Positions 9,542 to 35,967 of a stretch of DNA of 37,113 bases are shown piece by piece; position 1 is the stretch's first letter; every line of letters starts with the position of its first letter. The stretch is from assembly GCA_009779355.1 (NCBI GenBank), contig WREK01000006.1:1-37113 (forward strand). Direction: 5' to 3'. Source of the stretch: Betaproteobacteria bacterium. Lineage in GTDB: Bacteria; Pseudomonadota; Gammaproteobacteria; Burkholderiales; Rhodocyclaceae. The notes beneath the pieces were generated by a model. It was not told the DNA's origin and did no database searches. It worked only from the letters and a program-made list of their open reading frames with translations. The position numbers and the translations under genes were made by a program.

Positions 9542-11849
9542 AGCGCTTGCCGACGATTCCCGCTATGCCCGCCGCCACCGCACGCTGGCCTGGGGTTGGC
9601 TGTGCATCCTGGCATTGCTGGCTGGCGTGCTTCTTACGCACATACTGCCCTGGCGCGGCCAGATCGATACTGACCTGCTGGCGCTGCTTCCCGTCGACGA
9701 ACGCAACCCGCACGCCGAAGCCGCGCTGAAAACCCTGACGCAGCATGGCGAGCGGGAACTGGTGCTGCTGCTGGCGGCAAAGGATGCCGCCACGGCGCAG
9801 CGCGCCGCCCGCCACGTGCGTGAAAGCCTGCGGGAGGCGCCACTGACGCCGCAAGCGCCCCAGGCGCAAATCGAGGCCATGCGCGACCTCTATTTCCCCT
9901 ATCGCGCTGGCTTCATCACCGACCAGGATCTGCGCTGGATTGGACGCGCCGACCATTCGGCACAGGTGCAGCGCGCCCTGGCGCTTGCCTATCAGCCGTT
10001 CGCGGGCGGCACCCTCAATTGGCGCGATGACCCCTTCGGTTTCTTCGGCAACTGGATGATGCAACTGGGCGCTGCCAGCCCGGCACGCCCCTACGGCGAC
10101 ACGCTGATGGTGCAAACGGCGGAGCGCCACTATGCGGTGTTGCTCTATCAACTGACGCAAAGCGCGTTTTCGTCCAACCTTCAGAAGCGCCTTGCTGCTG
10201 ACCTGTCGGCTGTCCGAAATGAACTGGCGCAGCAGTTCCCCGACGTGCAATTGCTGCGGGCAGGCGTCGTCCTGCACGCCACAGCGGCGGCGCAACAGGC
10301 GCAGTTTGAAATGTCGCTGATCGGCAGCGGTTCGCTACTGTGCTGCGTATTGCTCACGTGGTTTGTTTTCCGAAATTTCAAGGCATTGCGGCTGATCCTG
10401 CTCTCGCTTGCCGCCGGCGCGCTGGCGGCATTGTCGCTGACGTGGCTGATGTTCGACCGCCTCCACGCGCTGACGCTGGTGTTCGGCGCCAGCCTGATCG
10501 GGGTTGCCGTTGATTACGGTGTCCTGGTGATGGCGCAGCATCTGAATGACCCCGAACCAGGCTGGCCGCGTTTCCGCCGGCTGCTGCCGACGTTGTCCCT
10601 GGTGCTGGTCGCACCGGCGCTGGCCTACCTCGGCCTGCTTCTGATGCCGTTCCCGGGCATGCGGCAAATGGCCTGCTTCGCCGTCTGCGGCATCATTAGC
10701 GCTTGGCTGACGATCATGCTCTGGTATCCCTATTTGTTGCCTCCGTCACTGCCGGTCACACCGCTTGCCGGATGGTTGATGAAAATGCTGCAGCACTGGC
10801 CGCGTTGGCGCGCAACCCCCGCGCAATGGGCCATCGCCGCACTGGCCGCCATCGCCATCGGCGTGGGCATGTCGCAACTGAAAACGGACGACGACATCCG
10901 CAACTTGGTCAATAGCGACCCGGAATTGCTGCGCGAACATCTCGATGTTGCCAGGGCGCTCGAACTGCCCAGCCCGGCACAGCTTTTTCTGATTACCGGC
11001 ACGGATCCCGAAGAAGTACTGCAACATGAAGAAGCATTGCTGGAAAAACTGACCCCGCTGCTTGCAACCGGCAAACTCACCGGCTTTGATGCAATCAGCC
11101 GCTGGCTGCCGTCGCGCGAGCGGCAACAGGTTGCGTGGGAGGCGCAGCAAACGCTGACCGGTGCCCGTGCCGCGCTGGCGGAAGAACTGGAGCTCCTCGG
11201 CGACTGGGCCACTGCCACGCGCCAGGCATCGCTGACGGCAGACGAATGGCTGGCGCAACCGGCAACAAAGCCACTGCGTTACCTATGGCAGGGCCGTAGT
11301 GCGGACGGCCGCTATTCGAGCATCGTCCTCCTGAAAGGGCTGCACGATGCCGACACCGCGCGTCAACTGGCGGCACTCAGCGACGCCCATACCCAATGGG
11401 TCGACAAAACTGCCGAAGTTTCGTCATTGATGGGGCGTTACCGGACGCTGCTGTCATCCGTGCTGGCCGCCGCCTATATATTGGCCCCGTTGGCGCTGCT
11501 GGCGTTCTTCCGTCGCCAGACGTGGCGTGTCGTCATGCCGTCGCTGCTAGCCACATTGGGCACACTGGCGGTTATGGGCTACGCTGGCGTGCCGCTGCAG
11601 CTGCTCAACGTACTGACGCTCCTGCTAGTGTTTGGTATGGGTATCGACTACGGCCTGTTCCTGGTCGCGCAGCGCAGCGATGCCCGCGCTTTTCTCGCCA
11701 TCTGCGTTGCCGCCTCGCTGACGCTGGCAGCGTTCGGCCTGCTGGCCGTGAGCAGTACGCCGGCATTGCAGACGATAGGGGTGACGACCGTGCTTGGGAT
11801 TGGGCTGGCGTGGTTGTTTACGCCGCTGTTCAGGGAGCATACGGGGTGA
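9516..11849 (+). CDS. MMPL/RND-family exporter of the APE cluster
   Basis: This 777-residue transporter has two halves, each a transmembrane bundle after a large periplasmic loop. Hydrophobic helices include one at about residues 25-44 (GWLCILALLAGVLL), a cluster at ~265-425 and a second cluster from ~640 to 770. The D-Y motif of RND/MMPL helices is seen in GVAVDYGVLV and GMGIDYGLFLVAQR. It would use the proton gradient to extract the polyene-lipid and hand it to the LolA-like protein (apeM by order, an inference). The start overlaps the preceding gene by 26 bases. The run of tightly packed APE genes breaks right after its stop, where a TA module is inserted. Confidence 0.88.
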   Translation: MNAPSSTSKALADDSRYARRHRTLAWGWLCILALLAGVLLTHILPWRGQIDTDLLALLPVDERNPHAEAALKTLTQHGERELVLLLAAKDAATAQRAARHVRESLREAPLTPQAPQAQIEAMRDLYFPYRAGFITDQDLRWIGRADHSAQVQRALALAYQPFAGGTLNWRDDPFGFFGNWMMQLGAASPARPYGDTLMVQTAERHYAVLLYQLTQSAFSSNLQKRLAADLSAVRNELAQQFPDVQLLRAGVVLHATAAAQQAQFEMSLIGSGSLLCCVLLTWFVFRNFKALRLILLSLAAGALAALSLTWLMFDRLHALTLVFGASLIGVAVDYGVLVMAQHLNDPEPGWPRFRRLLPTLSLVLVAPALAYLGLLLMPFPGMRQMACFAVCGIISAWLTIMLWYPYLLPPSLPVTPLAGWLMKMLQHWPRWRATPAQWAIAALAAIAIGVGMSQLKTDDDIRNLVNSDPELLREHLDVARALELPSPAQLFLITGTDPEEVLQHEEALLEKLTPLLATGKLTGFDAISRWLPSRERQQVAWEAQQTLTGARAALAEELELLGDWATATRQASLTADEWLAQPATKPLRYLWQGRSADGRYSSIVLLKGLHDADTARQLAALSDAHTQWVDKTAEVSSLMGRYRTLLSSVLAAAYILAPLALLAFFRRQTWRVVMPSLLATLGTLAVMGYAGVPLQLLNVLTLLLVFGMGIDYGLFLVAQRSDARAFLAICVAASLTLAAFGLLAVSSTPALQTIGVTTVLGIGLAWLFTPLFREHTG

Positions 11850-11868: not shown

Positions 11869-11896
11869 TTGTTTTCTGTACCAAATTTGGTACAAT
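11869..11896 (+). promoter_or_regulatory. Promoter with palindromic operator for the HigBA-like module
   Basis: A -35-like TTGTTT (11869-11874) and a -10-like TACAAT (11891-11896) are 16 bases apart. A perfect 18-bp palindrome, TGTACCAAATTTGGTACA (11877-11894), fills the spacer and overlaps the -10 box, seven bases before the toxin ATG at 11903. This is the layout expected of an autorepressed TA promoter bound by the XRE antitoxin. Confidence 0.6.
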
Positions 11897-11902
11897 CATC
11901 AC

Positions 11903-12248
11903 ATGAATCCCATAATCCTTGATGTTCGCTTCTTTCAGACGGAATCTGGCGCGGAGCCGGTGCGTGATTGGCTGAAAGCGTTGCCGCCGCCGACACGCCG
12001 AGCCATCGGCGAAGACCTGAAGACCGTGCAATTCGGCTGGCCTCTTGGAATGCCACTAGTGCGGAAAATGGAAAAGGATTTGTGGGAAGTGCGTGTTCAC
12101 TTGGAGAGGCAGGTCGCGCGGGTGATAGTTCACCGTGGCGGGCAGCGTGATGGTGTTGCTGCACGGGTTCATCAAAAAATCCGCCGCAACGCCGAAAGAC
12201 GATCTGGCACTGGCCAAGAGCCGACTCAAACAGTTAAGGAGTCAATGA
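11903..12248 (+). pseudogene. higB: HigB-like (RelE/ParE superfamily, Gp49-like) toxin, frameshifted
   Basis: The first ~75 residues read as a Gp49/HigB-type mRNA-interferase toxin (FFQTESGAEPVRDWL, KDLWEVRVHLE, ending RVI). After codon ATA (12125-12127) the family sequence continues only in the +1 frame: from 12129 it reads FTVAGSVMVLLHGFIKKS and ends SRLKQLRSQ with TGA at 12246-12248. One extra base near 12128 therefore breaks the gene; without it the product would be 114 residues. As written, the ribosome runs on in frame into the antitoxin, giving one long ORF. Either the toxin is inactivated or the base is a sequencing error; a programmed shift is less likely because no slippery site is seen. 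Confidence 0.8.
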
Positions 12249-12532
12249 TGAAGAACAAGTATATCGGCAGTAGCCTCGACACCTTTTTTAAAGAGGAAGC
12301 CATGCTGGAAGAGGTCACTGCTGTGGCGGTGAAGCGGGCGCTTGCCTGGCAGATCGAGAACGAGATGGAGGCACAGAAACTGACCAAGACAGCCTTGGCA
12401 AAAAGGATGCATACCAGTCGTTCGGCGCTGAATCGTCTGCTCGATGAGAGCGACACCAGCCTGACACTGACCACACTAGCCAGCGCCGCTGCCGCACTCG
12501 GTAAAACTGTGAAGATAGAGTTGGTGGCTTAG
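12245..12532 (+). CDS. higA: XRE-family HigA-like antitoxin
   Basis: This 95-residue helix-turn-helix antitoxin would bind the HigB-like toxin and repress the module. The HTH is visible at about residues 55-80: KLTKTALAKRMHTSRSALNR, followed by LTTLASAAAALGKTVKIEL. Start ATG 12245 overlaps the toxin's restored TGA (12246-12248); ATG 12248 is also possible. An AAGGAG site lies at about 12236-12241. The gene is intact while the toxin is not. It and the toxin separate two parts of the APE operon. Confidence 0.87.
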   Translation: MMKNKYIGSSLDTFFKEEAMLEEVTAVAVKRALAWQIENEMEAQKLTKTALAKRMHTSRSALNRLLDESDTSLTLTTLASAAAALGKTVKIELVA

Positions 12533-12748
12533 TTCCCGATAGTTGCCACTGCTACAATACACAATCTGTGCAAGTGTAAATTTCAATCCACGCCCGTACC
12601 CGGGCGACAAAAGCGCTTGAAAGAGGTTACGCCTCTCCCAAGCGAGATTATCCCCCTAAAGGGGGAGGTTTCTAACCGCGGTTTGTTTTTGATGAAACCT
12701 CCGACATCACCGTTTTCGACGCCTCCCAATGGTTGCTGCCACGCGTCT
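12533..12748. other. Non-coding gap inside the APE operon
   Basis: No convincing gene is present. It holds the CRISPR-repeat-like sequence at 12580-12608 and a small hairpin, TCCCCCTAAAGGGGGA (12651-12666), that lacks a U-tract. The ORF-track extension of the next gene back to 12617 has no ribosome site and no family match, so it is treated as untranslated. Confidence 0.6.
12580..12608 (-). repeat. Solitary sequence resembling a type I-C CRISPR repeat
   Basis: On the minus strand the stretch reads GTCGCCCGGGTACGGGCGTG followed by GATTGAAA. This fits the general form of type I-C repeats (GTCGCCC...GGGCGTGGATTGAAAC), including the terminal ATTGAAA, with one mismatch at the very end. There is only one copy in the window, no spacers and no cas gene. 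It is a relic or chance match, not an array. Confidence 0.5.
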
Positions 12749-18866: not shown

Positions 18867-18932
18867 CTTTGACGAATCTGGATGAAATATGATGAAATCC
18901 GTACCTATTTGCCTTGGCAGAGCGAAGCAACA
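18867..18932 (+). promoter_or_regulatory. Conserved leader of the vgrG genes, copy A
   Basis: The 66 bases before vgrG1 contain TTGACGAATCTGGATGAAAT and continue ATGATGAAATCCG. The same leader stands before vgrG2 (copy C, about 22610-22674) and as an orphan (copy B, 22485-22532). The shared part suggests duplication together with the genes, and maybe a common control signal. TTGAC and TATGAT are 13 bases apart, too short for a normal sigma-70 promoter, so the function is open. Confidence 0.5.
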
Positions 18933-21059
18933 ATGAACCGCGATTTGATAGCGCACACCCCTTTGGGGGAAGCTTGGTGGGCGGTGAGCATGACTGGCCA
19001 CGAGGCGTTGGGGGAACTCTACGAATTCCGTGTAGGGCTGAAATCGGACGACCCGGACATTGACACCCAGTCACTGCTGGGGGAAGTGGCGGCGGTCGAA
19101 CTCATCGCGCAAGGGGGGCTTTCGCGTTACTTTTCCGGGCAGATCGTCAAGGTTTCGGCCCTTGGCCTGAGTGGCCGCCACTGGGCGTACGAAGTGACGC
19201 TGGCCCCGAAACTGTGGCTCGCGACCCGGCGCTCGGACTATCGGATCTGGCAGCAGCAGAGCGTGCGCGAGATTGCCAATGCGGTATTGCAAGCGAACGC
19301 GCTACGTTGCGAATGGCAGCTTAAGAACACCTACAAGACATGGGAATACCTGGTTCAGTATGGGGAGACCGACTTTGCCTTCCTGTCGCGCCTGTTCGAG
19401 CGCGAAGGCATCTATTACTGGTTCGAGCACGGGCTGGACGGGGAAAAGATGGTTCTCGGGGATCACTTCTCCATCCACGAAGCGTTTGGCGGATACAAGC
19501 AAATTCCCTTCTACATGCCGGGTTCCGAGGGGGTGTCTGATGAAGACCACTACGATGGCTGGGCCGCCTCGCGCGAACCGGAACCGGGCCGCTTCAAGCA
19601 CACGGACTACGATTTCCAGCATCCATCGCTGGACTTGACCACTGAATACAGCGACCCGCGCGGGCATCTGTTCGACCAATGCGAAATCTACGCCTACCCA
19701 GGCGGCTACACCGAGACATCCGACGGCAAGGCGTACGCCACGACAAGGCGCGAAGCCCTGCAAAAGGAGCAGGACGTCACCGAGCTAGAAGGCTCCGTGC
19801 GGGGGGCAATGCCCGGTTACAGCTTTACGCTCTACAACCATCCGCGCGCGGATCAGAACCGTGACTACCTGATCACGCGTGCGCGCTACGAAGTGCGCAT
19901 CCACGACTACGAAACCACGCCGGATGCCAACGAGCAGACCTGCCGGATGCGCATTGGGGCCATCCCGGCGGATCGGCAGTTCCGTCCCGGCGCCTGGACG
20001 CCGAAGCCGTGCGTGCGCGGCCCGGAAACGGCGGTGGTGGTAGGCCCCGAGGGCAGCGAGATCCACACTGACCAATACGGGCGGGTAAAAGTGCACTTTC
20101 CCTGGGATCGCTACGGGGCGCGTGACGGTTCCGACACGTGCTGGATACGGGTTTCCACGACTTGGGCGGGCAGGGGTTTTGGGGCGATCTCGATCCCGCG
20201 CGTCGGGCACGAAGTCATCATCGACTACGAGCATGGCAACCCGGATCGGCCCATCATCATCGGGCAGGTCTATAACGCCGAGGAGATGCCGCCCTGGGAA
20301 CTGCCTGCGAACAAAACCCAGTCGGGCGTCCTGAGCCGCTCCAGCATACTGGGTTCGCCTGACAACGCCAATGCGCTACGGTTCGATGACGCCAAGGGCA
20401 ATGAACAGGTCTGGCTGCATGCCGAACGCAACCAGGACATTGAAGTCGAAGCCGATGAGACGCACTGGGTCGGCAAAGACCGTACAAAGACCATCGACGG
20501 AAACGAAACGACTACCGTTCACAAGAACCGTACTGAGACCGTCGACGGCAACGAAACGATCACCATCCACCAGGATCGCACGAAAACGGTTGATGGCACC
20601 GAGACCAGCAAGATCAAGAAGAACAAGGCTGAAACCATCATGCTTGCCTCGGTACAAAGTGTCGGCGCTGCGCGGATGGACAACGTCGGCCTCGCCTACA
20701 ACCTGAACGTCGGCGCGGCGCAGGTCAACATCATCGGTGGCCTTTACAGCCTGGACGTCGGGCGGAAAATGATAACCATTGTTGGTAATGCTCAGGAAAC
20801 TATCGTCCAGAAAGGGGATCAGGAGGTTACCGTCCAGCAAGGGAACCAAAAGATTACCGTCGTGAGCGGAAAACAGACGACCTATGCCGCCAGGAAGATC
20901 CGGTTTGAGGCAGGCGATGAGGATATTACGCTGGTCTGTGGTGACGCCAATATCGTAGTCGCTCCGGATTCGATTGTCCTGAAAGCAGGGGGGGCTGAGG
21001 TGATGATCAACAAAGCGGGCGTTACAGTGAACGGCACCAAGATCCTTTTGAGTGGCTGA
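18933..21059 (+). CDS. vgrG: VgrG spike protein 1 (T6SS TssI)
   Basis: This 708-residue protein is a VgrG trimer subunit, the spike at the tip of the T6SS tube. The N-terminal gp27-like part opens MNRDLIAHTPLGEAWW; the gp5-like region includes GPEGSEIHTDQYGRVKVHFP and ISIPRVGHEVIIDYEHGNPD. A C-terminal beta-helix follows from about residue 500, with repeats such as TKTIDGNET and TETVDGNET. ATG 18933 is chosen because all three VgrG copies begin there; the track start at 18882 lies in the leader. Its C-terminal ~240 residues differ from those of copies 2 and 3, so it may carry different cargo. No T6SS structural gene is nearby. Confidence 0.93.
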   Translation: MNRDLIAHTPLGEAWWAVSMTGHEALGELYEFRVGLKSDDPDIDTQSLLGEVAAVELIAQGGLSRYFSGQIVKVSALGLSGRHWAYEVTLAPKLWLATRRSDYRIWQQQSVREIANAVLQANALRCEWQLKNTYKTWEYLVQYGETDFAFLSRLFEREGIYYWFEHGLDGEKMVLGDHFSIHEAFGGYKQIPFYMPGSEGVSDEDHYDGWAASREPEPGRFKHTDYDFQHPSLDLTTEYSDPRGHLFDQCEIYAYPGGYTETSDGKAYATTRREALQKEQDVTELEGSVRGAMPGYSFTLYNHPRADQNRDYLITRARYEVRIHDYETTPDANEQTCRMRIGAIPADRQFRPGAWTPKPCVRGPETAVVVGPEGSEIHTDQYGRVKVHFPWDRYGARDGSDTCWIRVSTTWAGRGFGAISIPRVGHEVIIDYEHGNPDRPIIIGQVYNAEEMPPWELPANKTQSGVLSRSSILGSPDNANALRFDDAKGNEQVWLHAERNQDIEVEADETHWVGKDRTKTIDGNETTTVHKNRTETVDGNETITIHQDRTKTVDGTETSKIKKNKAETIMLASVQSVGAARMDNVGLAYNLNVGAAQVNIIGGLYSLDVGRKMITIVGNAQETIVQKGDQEVTVQQGNQKITVVSGKQTTYAARKIRFEAGDEDITLVCGDANIVVAPDSIVLKAGGAEVMINKAGVTVNGTKILLSG

Positions 21060-22674: not shown

Positions 22675-24858
22675 ATGAACCGCGAATTGATAGCGCACAC
22701 CCCTTTGGGGGAAGCTTGGTGGGCGGTGAGCATAACCGGCCACGAGGCGCTGGGGGAACTCTACGAATTCCGTGTAGGGCTGGTATCGGACGACCCGGAC
22801 ATTGACACCCAGTCTCTGCTGGGGGAAGTGGCGGCGGTCGAACTCATCGCGCAAGGGGGGCGTTCGCGCTACTTTTCCGGGCATATCGTCAAGGTTTCGG
22901 CCCTTGGCCTAAGTGGCCGCCACTGGGCGTACGAAGTGACGCTGGCCCCAAAGCTGTGGCACGCGACCCGGCGCTCGGACTATCGGATCTGGCAGCAGCA
23001 GAGCGTACGCGAGATTGCCAATCAGGTATTGCAAGCGAACGCGCTGCGTTGCGAATGGCGGCTTAAGAACGCCTGCAAGACATGGGAATATCTGGTTCAG
23101 TACGGGGAAACCGACTTTGCTTTTCTGTCGCGGCTGTTCGAGCACGAAGGCATCTATTATTGGTTCGAGCACAGGCTGGACGGGGAAAAGATGATCCTCG
23201 TGGATCACTTCTCCATCCACGAAGCGTTTGATGGATACGAGCAGATCCCCTTCTACACGCCGAATTCCGGGTGGGTGTCTGATGAAGAGCATTACGATGA
23301 CTGGTGCGCCTCGCGCGAGCCGGAGCCGGGCCGCTTCAAACACACGGACTACGATTTCCAGCACCCGTCGCAGGATCTGACCACCGAATACAGCGACCCG
23401 CGCGGGCATCTGTTCGACCAATACGAAATCTACGCCTACCCAGGCGGGTACACCGAGACGTCCGACGGCAGGGCGTACGCCGCAACAAGGCTCGAAGCCC
23501 TGCAAAAGGAGCAGGACGTCACCGAACTCGGCGGTCCCGTGCGGGGAGCAATGCCCGGTTACCGGTTTACGCTCTACAACCATCCGCGCGCGGATCAGAA
23601 CCGCGACTACCTGATCACGCGTGCGCGCTACGAAGTGCGCATCAACGACTACGAAACCACGCCGGATGCCGACGAGCAGACCTGCCGGATGCGCATCGGG
23701 GCCATCCCGGCGGATCGGCAGTTCCGCCCCGGCACCTGGACGCCGAAGCCGTGCGTGCGCGGCCCGGAAACGGCGGTGGTGGTGGGCCCCGGGGGCAGCG
23801 AGATCCACACCGACAAATACGGGCGTGTGAAGGTGCACTTCCCCTGGGACCGCTACGGTGCGCGCGACGGTTCCGACACATGCTGGATACGGGTTTCCAC
23901 GACCTGGGCGGGCAAGGGCTTCGGGGCGGTCTCGATCCCGCGCGTCGGTCACGAGGTCATCATCGACTACGAGCATGGGGACCCGGACCGGCCCATCATC
24001 ATCGGGCAGGTCTACAACGCCGAGACAATGCCGCCCTGGGAACTGCCTTCGGGCAAGGTGCACTCGGGCCTGATGTCGCGCTCGACGCCGGGCGGCTCGG
24101 AAGGCAACACGCTGCGCTTCGACGACACGTCCGGGGCCGAGCAGTTCATGATGCACGCGCAGTACAACATGGACACCAACGTCAACAATGACGAAAGCCA
24201 CACGGTGGGGGCGAACCGCACGACGAGCATCACGGACGACGAAACCTGCGCAGTGGAGGGCAAACGCGACACAACGGTGACGGGCGACGAGACGCTGACT
24301 TGCTCGGCCAACCGGGATAAGACGGTTGTGGGTGATGAGACTTGTTCGACTACCAAAACACGCACCACCAACGTAACCGGCAATGAAACCCTGATTTGTG
24401 CAGCGGACCGGCAAAAAACGATCGATGGCGACGAGAGCAATAATTTTGTGGGAAACCGGGAGAAAAAAGTTGGTGGCTCCGAGGGCGTTGAAATTGGTGA
24501 AGATTCTTCGATTTTTTCCGGGCCGCTTACATATAAGGTGCTCGGTGGCCTGCGGCAAGAGGACGTGGGGGGAGGGCATCAGGTTGGAGTCGACGAAAAC
24601 ATGACTACGAAAGCGGCAAACTATACTGTTACAGCTACCTCGCATTCTGTTACGGCTAAGACCGCAGTTACGGTCAACGCTTCGGTCATTACGCTCAAGG
24701 CTGGTCCCGCGTTGATTCGGATGGATAACTCTGGCATCACGATTGTCGGTTTGATGGAAGATGGCGAGGCAATGGGTGCAAGAAACTTCCTTTCCAGTCT
24801 GGAAAGCGCCATAAGCAAATCGAACGATGTGCAGTCATCCGTGAACAGCGTCAACTAA
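22675..24858 (+). CDS. vgrG: VgrG spike protein 2
   Basis: This 727-residue VgrG begins MNRELIAHTPLGEAWW and is nearly identical to copies 1 and 3 through the gp27- and gp5-like parts (to about residue 460). From there it follows copy 3 (GLMSRSTPGGSEGN, then repeated TVTGDET-type units), and after about residue 590 it has its own tail ending SSVNSVN. The long minus-strand ORF 22909-24645 is a codon-bias shadow. It is followed 43 bases later by vgrG3. The shared part probably results from recent duplication or gene conversion. Confidence 0.93.
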   Translation: MNRELIAHTPLGEAWWAVSITGHEALGELYEFRVGLVSDDPDIDTQSLLGEVAAVELIAQGGRSRYFSGHIVKVSALGLSGRHWAYEVTLAPKLWHATRRSDYRIWQQQSVREIANQVLQANALRCEWRLKNACKTWEYLVQYGETDFAFLSRLFEHEGIYYWFEHRLDGEKMILVDHFSIHEAFDGYEQIPFYTPNSGWVSDEEHYDDWCASREPEPGRFKHTDYDFQHPSQDLTTEYSDPRGHLFDQYEIYAYPGGYTETSDGRAYAATRLEALQKEQDVTELGGPVRGAMPGYRFTLYNHPRADQNRDYLITRARYEVRINDYETTPDADEQTCRMRIGAIPADRQFRPGTWTPKPCVRGPETAVVVGPGGSEIHTDKYGRVKVHFPWDRYGARDGSDTCWIRVSTTWAGKGFGAVSIPRVGHEVIIDYEHGDPDRPIIIGQVYNAETMPPWELPSGKVHSGLMSRSTPGGSEGNTLRFDDTSGAEQFMMHAQYNMDTNVNNDESHTVGANRTTSITDDETCAVEGKRDTTVTGDETLTCSANRDKTVVGDETCSTTKTRTTNVTGNETLICAADRQKTIDGDESNNFVGNREKKVGGSEGVEIGEDSSIFSGPLTYKVLGGLRQEDVGGGHQVGVDENMTTKAANYTVTATSHSVTAKTAVTVNASVITLKAGPALIRMDNSGITIVGLMEDGEAMGARNFLSSLESAISKSNDVQSSVNSVN

Positions 24859-24901
24859 ACGTTTTTTTATCGATGCCTTTATTTTCGAGGAACAGCAAAC
24901 C

Positions 24902-27082
24902 ATGAACCGCGAATTGATAGCGCACACCCCATTGGGGAAAGCCTGGTGGGCGATAAGCGTCACCGGCCACGAGGCGCTTGGTGAGCTGTACGAATTCCGC
25001 GTAGGGCTGCTGTCGGACAGCCCGGACATCGACACCCAGTCGCTGCTTGGGGAAGTGGCGGCGGTCGAGCTCCTCGCGCAAGGGGGCCTGCCGCGCTGGT
25101 TTTCCGGCCAGGTCGTCAAGGTGTCGGCCCTGGGGCTGCGCGGCCTCCACTGGGAGTACGAAGTGGTGCTGGCCCCGAAGCTGTGGCACGCGACCCGCCG
25201 CTCGGACTACCGGATCTGGCAGCAGCAGAGCGTGCGCGAGATCGCCAACCAAGTATTGCAGGCGAACGCGCTGCGCTGCGAATGGCGGCTGAAGGACACC
25301 TACAGGACCTGGGAATACCTGGTCCAGTACGGGGAGACCGACTTTGCCTTCCTGTCGCGGCTGTTCGAGCGCGAAGGCATCTATTACTGGTTCGAGCACG
25401 GCCTGGACGGGGAAAAGATGGTCCTCGGGGACCACTTCTCCATCCACGAAGCGTTTGGCGGGTACGAGCAGGTTCCCTTCCGCACGCCGGGTTCCGGGTG
25501 GGTGCCCGATGAAGACCATTACGATGGCTGGGCCGCCTCGCGCGAGCCGGAGCCGGGCCGGTTCAAACACACGGACTACGATTTCCAGCACCCGTCGCAG
25601 GACCTGACCACCGAATACAGCGACCCGCGCGGGCACCTGTTCGACCAATACGAAATCTACGCCTACCCTGGCGGGTACACCGAGGTGCCCGACGGCAAGG
25701 CATACGCGACGGCAAGGCTCGAGGCCCTGCAAAAGGAGCAGGACGTCACCGAACTCGAAGGCCCCGTGCGGGGCGCGATGCCCGGGTACCGGTTTACGCT
25801 CTACAACCACCCGCGCGCGGACCAGAACCGCGACTACCTGATCACGCGAGCGCGCTACGAAGTGCGCATCAACGACTATGAAACCACGCCGGATGCCGAC
25901 GAGCAGACCTGCCGGATGCGCATTGGGGCCATCCCTGCGGAGCGGCAGTACCGCCCCGGCACCTGGACGCCGAAGCCGTGCGTGCGCGGCCCGGAAACGG
26001 CGGTGGTGGTGGGTCCCGAGGGCAGCGAGATCCACACCGACAAATACGGGCGCGTGAAGGTGCACTTCCCCTGGGACCGCTACGGTGCGCGCGACGGTTC
26101 CGACACGTGCTGGATACGGGTTTCCACGACCTGGGCGGGTAGGGGCTTCGGGGCGGTCTCGATCCCGCGCGTCGGTCACGAAGTCATCATCGACTACGAG
26201 CATGGGGACCCGGACCGGCCCATCATCATCGGGCAGGTCTACAACGCCGAGACGATGCCGCCCTGGGAACTGCCTTCGGGCAAGGTGCAGTCGGGCCTGA
26301 TGTCGCGCTCGACGCCGGGCGGCTCGGAAGGCAACGCGCTGCGCTTCGACGACACGACCGGGGCCGAGCAGTTCATGATGCACGCGCAGTACAACATGGA
26401 CACCGACGTCAACAACGACGAAAGCCACACGGTGGGGGCGAACCGCACGACAAACATTGGGGCTGACGATACCTGCGCAGTGGAGGGCAAACGCGACACA
26501 ACGGTGACGGGCGACGAGATGCTGACCTGTTCATCCAACCGGACGAAGACGATCGAGGGCGACGAGTCTTGTTCGACTGGTGGGACACGCACCACTACCG
26601 TAACCGGCGATGAAACCCTGATTTGCGAAGCGGATAGGGAAAAAACTGTTACGGGAAATGAAACGAGCAATATCACTGGCGACCGGGTAAAGATCGTTGG
26701 CGGGTCGGAAGAATCTACTATTACAGGCACTTCGGATGTCACGATCAAAGGTGCGAGCATACACAGTGTAGACGGTGACCGTAGCGATGAGGTATCCGGC
26801 TGTTATAACCTGACAATCACTGGCGACATGAGCACTTCAGCAGTGGATCACAGCGTGGAAGCCACCAACCACACCGTCAATGCCAAGACAGCTACGCTTG
26901 ACGGCAGTTCTTCGGTCACACTGAACGCGGGCATCTCAAGTATTTCGATCAGCCCTGTGGGTATTACTTTGTCGTGCCCGGTGCTTACGGTATTGGCCGC
27001 TACGGTGAATTACTCTGGCGCTGCGGCGAGCAGTTCATCCCTGATGAACATTATTAAGTCGGGAAGGGTCAGTTACAAGTGA
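24902..27082 (+). CDS. vgrG: VgrG spike protein 3
   Basis: This 726-residue VgrG has the same body and its own tail (SITGTSDVTIKG-like repeats, ending SLMNIIKSGRVSYK). ATG 24902 has GAGGAA upstream. The tail repeats include TTVTGDEMLTCSSNR and TTVTGDETLICEADR, a ~15-residue beta-helix period. Its stop overlaps the start of the next gene (GTGA), so it leads the cargo operon DUF6484-DUF2169-KS-like-PAAR-like-Rhs. It is the most likely spike for the Rhs toxin below. The minus-strand 525-residue ORF here is a shadow. Confidence 0.93.
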   Translation: MNRELIAHTPLGKAWWAISVTGHEALGELYEFRVGLLSDSPDIDTQSLLGEVAAVELLAQGGLPRWFSGQVVKVSALGLRGLHWEYEVVLAPKLWHATRRSDYRIWQQQSVREIANQVLQANALRCEWRLKDTYRTWEYLVQYGETDFAFLSRLFEREGIYYWFEHGLDGEKMVLGDHFSIHEAFGGYEQVPFRTPGSGWVPDEDHYDGWAASREPEPGRFKHTDYDFQHPSQDLTTEYSDPRGHLFDQYEIYAYPGGYTEVPDGKAYATARLEALQKEQDVTELEGPVRGAMPGYRFTLYNHPRADQNRDYLITRARYEVRINDYETTPDADEQTCRMRIGAIPAERQYRPGTWTPKPCVRGPETAVVVGPEGSEIHTDKYGRVKVHFPWDRYGARDGSDTCWIRVSTTWAGRGFGAVSIPRVGHEVIIDYEHGDPDRPIIIGQVYNAETMPPWELPSGKVQSGLMSRSTPGGSEGNALRFDDTTGAEQFMMHAQYNMDTDVNNDESHTVGANRTTNIGADDTCAVEGKRDTTVTGDEMLTCSSNRTKTIEGDESCSTGGTRTTTVTGDETLICEADREKTVTGNETSNITGDRVKIVGGSEESTITGTSDVTIKGASIHSVDGDRSDEVSGCYNLTITGDMSTSAVDHSVEATNHTVNAKTATLDGSSSVTLNAGISSISISPVGITLSCPVLTVLAATVNYSGAAASSSSLMNIIKSGRVSYK

Positions 27083-30208: not shown

Positions 30209-33200
30209 TTGGACCACAATGTAGACGTTCTCAGCGGCGTGTACCGCCTCGATGGCGAGGACGAGCTCGACTTCACGCTGGATGCGCCGCTGCCGCTGGC
30301 GTGGCAGCGCACGTATACATCGAGCAACGCCAACACAGGCTGGTTCGGTCAGGGCTGGAGCGTGCCAGTAGCGGATCGGCTGGACATCACCAACGGCAAG
30401 GTTGACTACATTGACAAGAAGGGCAGCCGCACCCCATTCGAGGATCTGAAAGTTGGCGGCGAAACCTACTCGCAATACCGGCACATCACGCTGAAACGCA
30501 CCGCGCGGAATGAATACGAGATCCTCATCGAGGATGGCGGGCTGCGGCTCCTCTTCGGTTTACTGCCGCGCGACGAGAAGCGGCTGCGGGACACCGGCGA
30601 ACTTGAAACGGGCCTTGAGCCGGCCTCACGGCAAGCCCCTGCGCAAGCCGGGACGCTGGCGCTGGTGGCGCAGGTTGACCGCAACGGCAATTCGCTCAAG
30701 ATACGCTACGACGAACACAACATCCCTACGCGGATCGATGCCAGCACGGGCCGCTCGCTCGCGCTTGCCTTCGAGCGCCAGCCGCGCAGGAAGCCCCGCC
30801 TGACAAGCGTGCGCGAACTCCCCCGCGGCGATGGCGCGGGCCGCCTGCTCGTGCAGTACCGCTACAACCCGGAAGGCGACCTCGCCGAAGTGCTCGACGG
30901 CGAAGGCAGGCTGTGCCGCCGTTACCGTTGGGACAGACACATGCTCGTCGGGCATGGCAGCCCCGGCGGCGTCAGCTCGCGCATCGAATACACCCGGCTT
31001 GACCCGAACGGTTTTGTCGCCTCCGAGGCTGTCAGCACCGGGCAGAGCTGGCGCTTCGCGTACGACCTTGAAGACCGCTACATGCGGGTAATCGATAGCG
31101 AAGGGCGTGTTTTTGATACCTGGGCAGATAATGACCGCCGCCGCCCCCTGGTGGTCAAGGACCCGCTGGGCCACACCTGGCGTACCGAATACGACCAGTG
31201 GGGCGGCAATCCCACGCAGGAAATCGACCCGCTGGGCCGGATAACCGAACGCAAGTTCGACAAACGATCCCGCCCTGCCCTGATCGCCCTGCCCGATGGG
31301 TCTTGCTGGGCCATCCAGTGGCACGAGACAAGCGAACTACCGCTCTGCGTCACCGACCCGCTGGGCAACGTGACTCGCTACGAATACGACGAACGGGGCA
31401 ACCTCATCTGTGAGATCGACGCCAACCGCAACGAGACCCTCTATGAACTCGACGCGCGTGGCCTGGTTACCCGGATCACCGATGCCCGTGGCGGCATCCA
31501 ACATCTCGAATACGACCCGGACGGCCGCGTCGTCTCGCACACCGACTGCTCGGACGTGACCACCCGTTACCGCTACGATCAAGGCGGCAATCTCGCCTCG
31601 GTCACGGATGGGGAGGACAACGTCACCAGCTATGCTTGGGAATGGGTCAACCGGCAAGCGCGCCTGAGCGCCGTCCATCACCCCGACGGCAGCACCGAAA
31701 GGTTTGCCTACGATCCCCTGGGGCGCCTCATCGCCTACCACGACCCCCTTGGGCATGCCACCTGCTGGCGGGTCAACGAAGAAGGCGACCCCATTGAGCG
31801 CACCGACGCCCTCGAACATTCGCTCAAATACGCCTACGACCGCCACGGACGGCTGACCACACTCATCAACGAAAACGGCGCGCACTACCATTTCCAGTGG
31901 GACAAAGCCGACCGGCTCACCCGTGAACAAAGCTTCGACGGGCGCGAACAGCACTACACCTACAACGGCGCCGCCGAAGTCATCCTGAGCCGCGACGGAG
32001 CCGAAGACTCAGGCATCCTGACCCGCTACAGGCGCGACCCCCTGGGGCGGCTGCTCTTGAAGACGGCCATCCGGCAAAAGACAGAGATCGACAGCCACCA
32101 GGTTCGGCGCACACGATTCAGCTGGGACAAAGCAGGGCAACTCACCCTTGCGCGCAACCGGCACGCCACAGTCAGTTTCGGCTACACCCCCACTGGCGAA
32201 ATCGAAACGGAAACCACCATTCCCCAGGGCGGCAAACGTAGCGAACTCACCCACCGATACAGCCCGCTTGGGCACCGTATTGCCACCACGCTGCCCGATG
32301 GCAGGACAATCAACCATCTCACCTACGGCAACGGGCACGTCCACCAGATCAACATTGACGGGGAGATCGTCAGCGACATCGAGCGCGACGAGTTGCACCG
32401 GGAGGTCAAACGCACCCAGGGCAAGCTGGAGAGCATTTACACGCTGGACGCGATGGGCAGGCTGCTTGCCTCGCGGGCCAGCAGGCGGGACGGCACGGAG
32501 AGCAACACCACCACGGGGCAGAAGATCGCGCGGCGCTACACGTATGACCAGGGCGGGCGGCTCACACAGATAGAAGATGCCATCGGCGGCATCACCCGGT
32601 ACGGGTACGACGCGCTGGGCAGGCTGCTCGAAGCCGTCACGCCCAACAACACCGAACGTTTCAAGTTTGACCCGGCGCACAACCTGATCGACCCGGCAAG
32701 CGGGCACGGCGAGAAAGCAGGCAAAGAATGGACGGACGAAGAATGGGCCGAGTATGTGCGCGCCCACCTGGACGACCCAGGCTTCAGCCCGCTGAAGAAG
32801 CCAAAGACCCTGCCCTCGCTGTCGAACCGGCTCACGGTTTATGGGGAGCATCGGTACCAGTACGACGCATGGGGCAACTGCACCCAGAAGAAATCCGGCA
32901 AACACGTCACCAGGGACTTCAAGTGGGATGTGGATCATCGGCTGACGGATGCCACGATCACCAATACCACAGCCGGTACCACCGAGCACTGGCAATACAT
33001 CTATGACCCGCTTGGGCGGAGGATTGGCAAACGGAAGGTTGACGGGCAGGGGAACGTACAGGACGCGACGCGGTTTTACTGGGACGGGAACCGGCTGCTG
33101 GCCGAGGACAGGAACAACCGCAGGCAGCTTTACCTGTATGAGCCGGAGAGCTTCGTGCCGCTGGCGCTCGTGCGGTCGGAAGCAACGGACACCGCGCCGG

Positions 33201-34081
33201 AGCGCAAGCCTACGGCACTGCCTGCGAACCTGCCGGAAAACGTCGTTGCCGACCTGGCGCGCATCCGGGAGAGGATGCGCGTTGCCAAGGGGGAGAAAGA
33301 GCCGGAGCCGCTGAAAGGGGAAACCTTTTATATCCATACCGACCAGATTGGGACGCCGAAGGAAGTGACCAACACAGACGGGTGCCTGGTGTGGCGGGCG
33401 GAGTACCTGGCTTGGGGCGGGGTGAGGGAGATCGAGCGGCCTGACGTGCCGGTGACGGTGGCGGATGGCAACACTGCCAGAGTGGTCTGGGAGGGGCAGG
33501 CGGATCCGGTTGAGTGTAACATTCGGTTTCAGGGGCAGTATTGCGACGATGAAACGGGGCTGCATTACAATAGGTTTAGATATTATGATTCGGATGTAGG
33601 GAGGTTTGTTAGTCAGGATCCGATTGGGTTATTGGGGGGAGAGTGTCTTTATCAATATGCAGACAATCCCATATCTTGGATTGATCCGCTAGGTCTGACT
33701 ACTGGTTCACTATCAGGAATACCAAAAATTGGAGAAGTGTTTGGGGCAAGCGTAAATGCAGGCGGGGGGGGGTCTGTGCATCCTCTCATTAGAGATTTAT
33801 ACGGGGATATTGATTTTGAAGATCGTAGTAGATGGCATAAAAGACATTCTGCGAAAACAGACGGAAAGAGTTCATCTTGTGCTGAAGCAAGCGCCCTTAG
33901 TGATCTTGCATATAAGATTGAGCAAGAAAAAGGAATACCAGAAGGTATGCTTACGGAAGACATTCTTAAGAAATACACCGAAGGGGCAACGTGGAGATCT
34001 TATGATTTTTTTGGCGAAGTTATGCCTCCCTGTCCAGGATCGTGTTCAACGGTATTGAACAGATTAGGCATTATTTTCTAG
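30209..34081 (+). CDS. rhs: Rhs-family polymorphic toxin with deaminase-like tip
   Basis: This 1290-residue Rhs effector starts at TTG 30209 (AAGG 11 bases upstream); the first residues DHNVDVLSGVYRLDGEDELD are the DUF6531-type N-terminus. Many YD repeats (RYRYD, YEYDERGN, YAYDRHGR) form the shell, ending with the self-cleavage motif DPLGL at about residue 1159. The 127-residue tip is AT-rich and has a CAE motif (Cys1224) and a late PPCPGSC motif (Cys1275, Cys1279), similar to YwqJ-like nucleic-acid deaminases. The tip would be released into target cells; ankyrin immunity follows. The C-x3-C spacing, not the usual C-x2-C, makes the deaminase call tentative. Confidence 0.85.
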   Translation: MDHNVDVLSGVYRLDGEDELDFTLDAPLPLAWQRTYTSSNANTGWFGQGWSVPVADRLDITNGKVDYIDKKGSRTPFEDLKVGGETYSQYRHITLKRTARNEYEILIEDGGLRLLFGLLPRDEKRLRDTGELETGLEPASRQAPAQAGTLALVAQVDRNGNSLKIRYDEHNIPTRIDASTGRSLALAFERQPRRKPRLTSVRELPRGDGAGRLLVQYRYNPEGDLAEVLDGEGRLCRRYRWDRHMLVGHGSPGGVSSRIEYTRLDPNGFVASEAVSTGQSWRFAYDLEDRYMRVIDSEGRVFDTWADNDRRRPLVVKDPLGHTWRTEYDQWGGNPTQEIDPLGRITERKFDKRSRPALIALPDGSCWAIQWHETSELPLCVTDPLGNVTRYEYDERGNLICEIDANRNETLYELDARGLVTRITDARGGIQHLEYDPDGRVVSHTDCSDVTTRYRYDQGGNLASVTDGEDNVTSYAWEWVNRQARLSAVHHPDGSTERFAYDPLGRLIAYHDPLGHATCWRVNEEGDPIERTDALEHSLKYAYDRHGRLTTLINENGAHYHFQWDKADRLTREQSFDGREQHYTYNGAAEVILSRDGAEDSGILTRYRRDPLGRLLLKTAIRQKTEIDSHQVRRTRFSWDKAGQLTLARNRHATVSFGYTPTGEIETETTIPQGGKRSELTHRYSPLGHRIATTLPDGRTINHLTYGNGHVHQINIDGEIVSDIERDELHREVKRTQGKLESIYTLDAMGRLLASRASRRDGTESNTTTGQKIARRYTYDQGGRLTQIEDAIGGITRYGYDALGRLLEAVTPNNTERFKFDPAHNLIDPASGHGEKAGKEWTDEEWAEYVRAHLDDPGFSPLKKPKTLPSLSNRLTVYGEHRYQYDAWGNCTQKKSGKHVTRDFKWDVDHRLTDATITNTTAGTTEHWQYIYDPLGRRIGKRKVDGQGNVQDATRFYWDGNRLLAEDRNNRRQLYLYEPESFVPLALVRSEATDTAPERKPTALPANLPENVVADLARIRERMRVAKGEKEPEPLKGETFYIHTDQIGTPKEVTNTDGCLVWRAEYLAWGGVREIERPDVPVTVADGNTARVVWEGQADPVECNIRFQGQYCDDETGLHYNRFRYYDSDVGRFVSQDPIGLLGGECLYQYADNPISWIDPLGLTTGSLSGIPKIGEVFGASVNAGGGGSVHPLIRDLYGDIDFEDRSRWHKRHSAKTDGKSSSCAEASALSDLAYKIEQEKGIPEGMLTEDILKKYTEGATWRSYDFFGEVMPPCPGSCSTVLNRLGIIF

Positions 34082-34098
34082 TTATTTGGAGGTTAATA

Positions 34099-35097
34099 AT
34101 GTCAAGAAAGGAACATCCAAACAATTCAAACAACGAAGAGCAAATATATCAAGACGCTATGAATCATTTATCAGAACTGAAAAAATGTGTTTTTGTCTAT
34201 ACCATTCCATACAAAGATGTGGAGAACTTGTTTATTAGTTATTGCGAAAAAGTGCTATTATCCGATAATGCTTTGCATTTTCTTGGAATAAATCCAACAA
34301 TACATAGAGTTTGCAAATTTTTAGTACAACAAGCTAAAAATTATATGCAAAATGAAATTTCTGGGATAGAGCTCAAGAGGATGAGAAAGTTATGTTGTGA
34401 TTTGATGGATTCTGTAGAAAAAGGATGCAAAGAATGGGCTTTGCTGGATGTAGTGGATAATTTTTTATATGAAGATCTTGATTGCTATTGGGATCCTGAA
34501 ATGGGATTTATAACTTTCTATGACGCTCTCATTGGCTTGGATCAAAATCAGCAGTTCTGTAAACGGTTGACTGATTATATAATTACTGAGTATTATAATA
34601 ATACAAAGTTTTACCCGTTATTAAAAGAATCTAATTATGAAAATATTAATGCGTTTTTGAAAAAATATGGATTTGATAGTGCTGATGAAGATGGGCGAAC
34701 ATTTTTAATGTTTGCAATTATTACAGGGAAGGATCATGTCGTCAATTATCTTGTTAATGAAGGCTGTGATGTAAATATTAAAGATAGATATGGATTAACT
34801 GCATTACATTATGCAGCTTTTTATGATAACTATAATATTGTGAAATTTCTTGTAATTCGAGGAGCTGAAATCGATGCAGTAAATAATATAGGTTCTACCC
34901 CTTTATGGATGGCAGTGAAGGCGGTGATGAACGATGGTAACCCAACATTAACTATAAAATATTTATTAGAGAATGGGGCTGATCCTGATAAAAAAAATAA
35001 TCATGGAGTAACTCCAAATGATTTACTTAGGAAGAGACTTGAAAAAATGGGCGAAAAGGCAGAAACACAGCCCGATGGTAAAGCCAAGAAGCAGTGA
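34099..35097 (+). CDS. Ankyrin-repeat protein, probable immunity protein
   Basis: This 332-residue protein has an AT-rich gene like the toxin tip. ATG 34099 has GGAGG seven bases upstream; the track start at 34042 lies in the Rhs gene. The N-terminal ~190 residues are helical with no recognised domain. Ankyrin repeats follow: DEDGRTFLMFAIITGKDHVV, KDRYGLTALHYAAFYDN, NNIGSTPLWMAVK and NNHGVTPNDLL. Ankyrin proteins are a known immunity class for polymorphic toxins, and it lies 17 bases after the Rhs stop. It probably binds and blocks the toxin tip. It lacks a signal peptide, so it would act in the cytoplasm. Confidence 0.8.
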   Translation: MSRKEHPNNSNNEEQIYQDAMNHLSELKKCVFVYTIPYKDVENLFISYCEKVLLSDNALHFLGINPTIHRVCKFLVQQAKNYMQNEISGIELKRMRKLCCDLMDSVEKGCKEWALLDVVDNFLYEDLDCYWDPEMGFITFYDALIGLDQNQQFCKRLTDYIITEYYNNTKFYPLLKESNYENINAFLKKYGFDSADEDGRTFLMFAIITGKDHVVNYLVNEGCDVNIKDRYGLTALHYAAFYDNYNIVKFLVIRGAEIDAVNNIGSTPLWMAVKAVMNDGNPTLTIKYLLENGADPDKKNNHGVTPNDLLRKRLEKMGEKAETQPDGKAKKQ

Positions 35098-35312: not shown

Positions 35313-35453
35313 GTAGGGCGTGATAAGGCCGAAGGCCGCCATCCGCCGATCCAAACCCTCTGGCGCGAAGCGCCACCATTATCATATTGCGATGCTGCGC
35401 ATCGGTCGATACAATTGTCGGATGGCGCCGCTTCGCGGCTTATCCAACCTACT
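35313..35453. repeat. REP-like repeat unit, left copy
   Basis: About 140 bases made of nested hairpins: TAAGGCCGAAGGCCGCCATC, TGGCGCGAAGCGCCA, GCGATGCTGCGCATCG and the GGCGCCGCTTCGCGGC arm. It is a direct repeat of the segment at 35964-36112, so the transposase gene lies between the two. Confidence 0.8.
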
Positions 35454-35466
35454 TTTGTGTCTGTTT

Positions 35467-35967
35467 ATGCCGAATTTTCGACGTAACCGCGTTCCGGGCG
35501 GGACTTACTTTTTTACGGTCAATTTGCGTGACCGTAAAAGTAAATTGCTCGTGCAAAAAATTGAACTGTTGCGGGAAGTAGTCAAGAAAGTTCGCCAAAA
35601 ACAACCATTCCATATCGACGCTTGGGTGGTGTTACCTAATCATTTACACTGTGTTTGGACGCTCCCGCTGGATGATGCGGATTACCCGTCACGCTGGCAA
35701 AATATCAAAAAAACATTTTCCAGACAAATTCCCGCAACCGAAATTTTGTCCGAAACTCAAACTCGTCAAAATGAACGAGGTATCTGGCAACGCCGCTATT
35801 GGGAACACACCATTCGGGACGACCGGGATTACGAGAAACATGTGGATTATTGCCACATCAATCCACTCAAACACGGACTTGTCACAGCGGTTAATGATTG
35901 GCCATTCTCAACTTTTCACCGCTATGTGCAAACAGGAATTTATCCGCCGGATTGGGCAATTTCGTAG
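35467..35967 (+). CDS. REP-associated tyrosine transposase (RAYT, Y1_Tnp family)
   Basis: This 166-residue single-domain HUH-type transposase would cut and move REP hairpins as single strands. ATG 35467 gives the family start MPNFRRNRVPGGTYFFTVNL; the track start at 35320 lies in the REP repeat. The HUH site is His59-Leu-His61 (LPNHLHCVWTLP); the catalytic tyrosine is Tyr128 in HVDYCHINPLKHGL. A GIWQRRYWEHTIRDDRDY linker, typical of RAYTs, is present. It is intact and framed by REP repeats, which are its likely substrates. It is usually domesticated rather than freely mobile. Confidence 0.9.
   Translation: MPNFRRNRVPGGTYFFTVNLRDRKSKLLVQKIELLREVVKKVRQKQPFHIDAWVVLPNHLHCVWTLPLDDADYPSRWQNIKKTFSRQIPATEILSETQTRQNERGIWQRRYWEHTIRDDRDYEKHVDYCHINPLKHGLVTAVNDWPFSTFHRYVQTGIYPPDWAIS

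Follow-up and report, generated by a model that had tools for sequence, protein, structure and literature searches.

What happens to a toxin-antitoxin module when a single extra base carries the toxin gene out of its own frame and into that of the antitoxin? This question arises at a locus in the window (the whole stretch of DNA analyzed here, 37,113 nucleotides), where a Gp49-family toxin gene is followed by an HTH antitoxin. The toxin ATG lies at 11903 on the plus strand, and the first 75 residues of the toxin are encoded from there in the original frame, as far as 12127. The other 39 are encoded in the +1 frame, from 12129 to a TGA at 12246 to 12248 (Table 1). A first-pass annotation, made from the sequence, had placed the frame break at this point and had added that translation continues in frame into the antitoxin; we recovered both features. 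The open frame from 11903 to 12532 encodes 209 amino acids, consisting of the N-terminal part of the toxin, an out-of-frame linker, and the antitoxin, which is of the HTH_37 type. The program-listed ORF begins further upstream, at 11396, within the MMPL gene. Segmenting the window by codon usage did not reveal the frame switch, 39 codons being too few, and so speaks neither for nor against it.

Three readings had been offered for this arrangement: a dead toxin, a sequencing error, or a fused regulator. We consider it probable that the locus is a recently inserted Gp49/HTH_37 type II module in which the toxin was recently inactivated by a net +1 change and the antitoxin was retained, the fused frame being a by-product.

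Table 1. Positions in the window of the features of the toxin-antitoxin locus
Feature	Position	Strand	Remarks
Predicted sigma-70 promoter	11869-11896	+	TTGTTT 11869-11874, 16-nt spacer, TACAAT 11891-11896; read from sequence
Putative operator, perfect palindrome GTACCAAATTTGGTAC	11878-11893	unstranded	9 nt before toxin ATG; 9-bp perfect arms
Toxin N-part	11903-12127	+	PF05973 match; 72% identity to L012
Net +1 frameshift site	12122-12130	+	Not a homopolymer; gap of 0 in relatives compared, 1 in window
Toxin C-part, out of frame	12129-12248	+	Contains catalytic lysine region HGFIKK; PF05973 match
Antitoxin ribosome-binding site AAGGAG	12236-12241	+	Inside toxin 3' end; read from sequence
HTH antitoxin (HTH_37)	12248-12532, or from 12245	+	PF13744, E = 8e-9; intact

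Intact relatives of the module

Loci with related antitoxins were taken from congeners, from the wider order, and from GTDB genomes. The toxin ORF was long enough to score as intact in 34 relatives, a lenient score that includes three loci (L014, L058, and L073), each with a lesion of its own. The comparison with relatives that the first-pass annotation had proposed yielded intact toxins with zero-gap junctions: the two pieces of the toxin abut without any extra base in every relative where both were located, and only the window has +1 between them, as expected from the net excess of one base that had been claimed. The antitoxin of the relatives is a separate ORF, which in most cases either overlaps the toxin stop, by 1 to 11 bases, or starts a few bases after it, and no fused toxin-antitoxin ORF was present among the relatives found. 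The C-terminal piece of the toxin is 68 to 71% identical to its two counterparts in L012 and L011.

Lesions of other kinds were seen elsewhere in the family. The toxin has an early stop in L061, is truncated in L014, carries a deletion in L058, and is frameshifted near its end in L073, and the antitoxin of a related module carries a frameshift in L074; these five lesions are independent of one another. The closest relative of the antitoxin (87% identical; L040, positions 1134 to 2057) has no toxin of the PF05973 family upstream and stands directly after an unrelated TA-like pair, made of an addiction-module-like toxin and an HTH antitoxin. Because the Gp49-family toxin is missing and this unrelated pair takes its place, L040 looks like an orphan antitoxin.

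Toxin family and the lost catalytic end

The two pieces of the toxin matched PF05973 independently and in the correct order. The N-terminal piece covers profile positions 1 to 55 (E = 3e-10, 40.4 bits) and the C-terminal piece positions 60 to 90 (E = 1e-6, 29.2 bits), each of them separately above the gathering score of 23.9 bits. Members of the Gp49 family have been named HigB, Tad, or RelE in the literature. The earlier label "HigB-like" is loose, since the protein does not belong to the classic HigB family of Escherichia coli and Proteus.

The AlphaFold2 model of an intact relative, L012 (pLDDT of 92.4), was used to locate the break in the fold. It falls within the strand of residues 71 to 79, and the strand 82 to 91 and the helix 98 to 114 lie wholly past it. 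A fold search with this model found HigB of Streptococcus pneumoniae (6af4; E = 1e-7) and HigB1 of Mycobacterium tuberculosis (7nbu and 7awk). A search of the PDB with a profile of the relatives returned the same HigB chains (6af3; E = 1.4e-16), and the search with the single sequence gave chance matches only. The lysine aligned with K92 of S. pneumoniae HigB and with K95 of M. tuberculosis HigB-TAC is encoded in the lost C-terminal piece, out of frame with the N-terminal part. Judging from the model, the frameshift would cost the toxin its last strands and final helix, together with the catalytic lysine. Because the lost piece includes this lysine and the K95A mutation abolishes the toxicity of HigB-TAC (PMC9098466), the ORF as written should be nontoxic, and both ribosome-dependent mRNA cleavage and toxicity are predicted to be absent. 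The dead toxin is hence the best supported of the three initial readings: the catalytic third is lost from the frame, and toxicity has probably gone with it.

Age of the lesion and the possibility of a sequence error

Apart from the extra base, the toxin gene is well preserved. We defined conserved columns as those at least 90% conserved among relatives (36 in all, 26 in the N-terminal piece and 10 in the C-terminal piece); the window retains 35 of them, the single exception being a change of I to V. Neither piece has a stop codon in its own frame, and the identities of both to the relatives fit the trend of intact genes. The dN/dS ratio is about 0.08 for the N-terminal piece against L012 and 0.14 to 0.20 for the C-terminal piece against the nearest relatives, values to be read with the caveat that most synonymous distances are near saturation. 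Taken together, the conserved residues, the absence of stops, the identity trend, and the low dN/dS indicate that the lesion is either very recent or not real. The nearest toxins, about 70% identical, are too distant to date the frameshift.

The second of these options, that sequencing or assembly introduced the extra base and that the true sequence is that of an ordinary toxin-antitoxin pair with both genes intact, is the most serious alternative, although we regard it as clearly less probable than a mutation. The genome is a draft of 255 contigs, with 91% completeness and 8% contamination, and an error of this kind would likewise leave the rest of the toxin undecayed. Against this, the frameshift site is outside any homopolymer, and frameshifts are rare in this genome (G000): the comparison with the congener G008 gave 3 in 274 kb of aligned coding sequence, and the reciprocal one gave 4 in 282 kb. 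This background, estimated from about 770 kb of the genome, gives about 0.004 expected frameshifts in a gene of the toxin's size. Five long frames of the window are unbroken, namely three VgrG-like frames of 725 to 727 amino acids, an MMPL frame of 777, and an RHS frame of 1,290. A true mutation is therefore favored over an error, which keeps a substantial probability because a stretch as long as the window is expected to contain about 0.4 such events.

Promoter, operator, and antitoxin

The sequence upstream of the toxin carries a predicted promoter, which was not listed by a generic promoter scan. Its layout, TTGnnn followed after about 17 nt by a TACAWT that ends about 6 nt before the ATG, is visible in relatives. 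Transcription would then begin at the toxin ATG or a few bases from it, giving a leaderless message. The predicted -10 box overlaps the right end of a palindrome that is widely conserved: GTAYYN6RRTAC occurs within the 70 nt upstream in 29 of the 34 relatives and, with one mismatch, in 3 more, against a background of 0.023 per kb. The consensus among relatives is GTAYCAwwwwTGRTAC, and in 24 of the 32 relatives having the palindrome it stands, as in the window, 9 nt before the ATG. This arrangement suggests a promoter controlled by the antitoxin, with autorepression of the operon. For the branch of Gp49 modules to which the relatives belong, the layout predicts that the toxin message is leaderless and that the antitoxin is translated well.

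The antitoxin has 94 amino acids when read from the ATG at 12248 and 95 from the ATG at 12245; the former suits the ribosome-binding site and many of the relatives better. The ATG at 12248 overlaps the toxin TGA, in the toxin-first order of the relatives, many of which have purine-rich sites resembling AAGGAG at the matching position. The antitoxin is 94% identical to part of L048, against which its dN/dS is about 0.04, and it is under purifying selection in its lineage. In the preferred reading, translation of the antitoxin could begin independently as well, from its own ribosome-binding site within the toxin gene; its expression would continue despite the frameshift, and most likely it still binds the promoter palindrome and represses the operon.

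Origin of the fused frame

Translation from the toxin ATG would produce a protein made of an inactive toxin remnant, a linker, and the antitoxin. The linker, of 38 to 39 residues, comes from the 3' end of the toxin gene, translated out of frame. In the relatives, the antitoxin frame mostly stands to the toxin frame such that a net +1 would join the two, and in 5 of the 34, including the two nearest, the antitoxin frame happens by chance to stay open over 38 or more upstream codons. The fused ORF is therefore the by-product expected of such a shift, a side effect of the frame change rather than a selected design.

A selected function was considered in two forms. The first-pass annotation was right that the open frame allows a fused protein to be made, and promoter, operator, and antitoxin have all been left intact. 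Fusions of the same family are on record, with 69 gp49-HTH fused toxin-antitoxin genes (Gerdes 2025, Table 2, PMC11980606). A 209-residue protein selected as a functional single-gene regulator, in which a dead toxin domain is joined to the antitoxin, is nevertheless very unlikely in our view: the fusion has no counterpart among the relatives, its linker is simply displaced toxin sequence, its open frame needs no selection, and its toxin part is without the catalytic segment and retains residues that suit a catalytic toxin, not a linker. The window ORF does not contain a complete toxin domain in frame with the antitoxin and conserved in relatives. We give scarcely more credence to the broader proposal that the frameshifted operon has become a single fused autoregulator that still represses its promoter, and maybe protects against related toxins, as an early stage of fused or solitary antitoxin regulators. 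Programmed +1 frameshifting at 12122 to 12130, as a source of small, controlled amounts of active toxin, is the least credible explanation of all, since the entirely open and conserved +1 frame and an ATA codon at the site, a less used Ile codon here (32 of the 268 Ile codons counted), are set against a site that on inspection has no known slippery motif or stop codon and at whose matching place none of the relatives has a frameshift.

Genomic setting and arrival of the module

The module is flanked by an MMPL-like transporter gene (a match slightly below the Pfam cutoff) and the DUF3261 gene of an aryl-polyene cluster. In 5 congeners, these two genes are separated by 44 to 263 bases, counted between protein matches, and the module is absent. 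A complete module was found in none of the 20 congeners searched, one of which (G003) gave a weak 31% match to part of the query. The G+C content of the module is 55%, compared with 64% for its neighbors. Its absence from the same spot in the 5 congeners and this lower G+C indicate that it was recently acquired. No second copy was found in the same genome, where the best match was a 35% HTH match only, and a DNA search of 60 related genomes revealed no second copy of the locus. Viral contigs held no relative of the antitoxin, and thus a phage origin was not found. A possible target-site repeat flanking the module (GTCCCCGAT / GTTCCCGAT) was short and judged too weak.

The preferred reading can thus be laid out as a series of steps. 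A type II module, with a PF05973 toxin and an HTH_37 antitoxin, would have been inserted between two aryl-polyene genes, and a net insertion of one base two thirds along the toxin gene would then have inactivated the toxin. If the locus is ordinary, it is of little import, being another case of a chromosomal toxin that has decayed beside an antitoxin that was kept. It does bring several stages together in one place: a recent arrival, a break in the toxin ahead of all other decay, and a still whole antitoxin and operator.

Other features of the window were recorded. A 117-bp repeat at 12581 to 12698 has about 40 further copies dispersed in the genome and is found at the orthologous place in the congener G009, there without the toxin-antitoxin module. 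On the minus strand, the first 28 bases of this repeat are similar to a CRISPR repeat (RF01322), with a score of 20.9 bits that falls short of the cutoff, but the copy at this place is single, not arrayed. A gene for an IS200/Y1-type transposase lies at 35320 to 35967 (PF01797; E = 5e-5, barely above the cutoff); it is possibly REP-associated and could relate to the dispersed repeat, no copy of which was found beside it. Two VgrG-like genes stand head to tail at 22675 to 27082, with a third paralog at 18882 to 21059, and are accompanied by a long RHS-type gene (30209 to 34081) and an ankyrin-repeat gene (34042 to 35097). To judge from these genes, this part of the window looks like a region of type VI secretion effectors.

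Comparison with known systems

The organization of the locus is that of known Gp49/HTH modules, such as tad-ata, HigBA of Acinetobacter baumannii, HigBA1 to HigBA3 of M. tuberculosis, and HigBA of S. pneumoniae, in which the toxin comes first and is overlapped by an HTH antitoxin. Both Pfam domains and the promoter operator are shared with these modules, and the nearest structures are S. pneumoniae HigB and M. tuberculosis HigB1. Unlike them, the window has the catalytic end of its toxin out of frame through a net insertion of one base. The fused gp49-HTH genes (Gerdes 2025) have in common with the window a single open frame in which a gp49 stretch is followed by an HTH antitoxin, but the toxin domain of the window is incomplete, its linker is out-of-frame toxin, and its fusion is unshared by relatives. 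Orphan antitoxins and decayed toxin-antitoxin loci, of which L040 is an apparent example, resemble the window in that the toxin is inactive or absent and the antitoxin is kept. In contrast to these loci, the window keeps the whole toxin gene bar one lesion.
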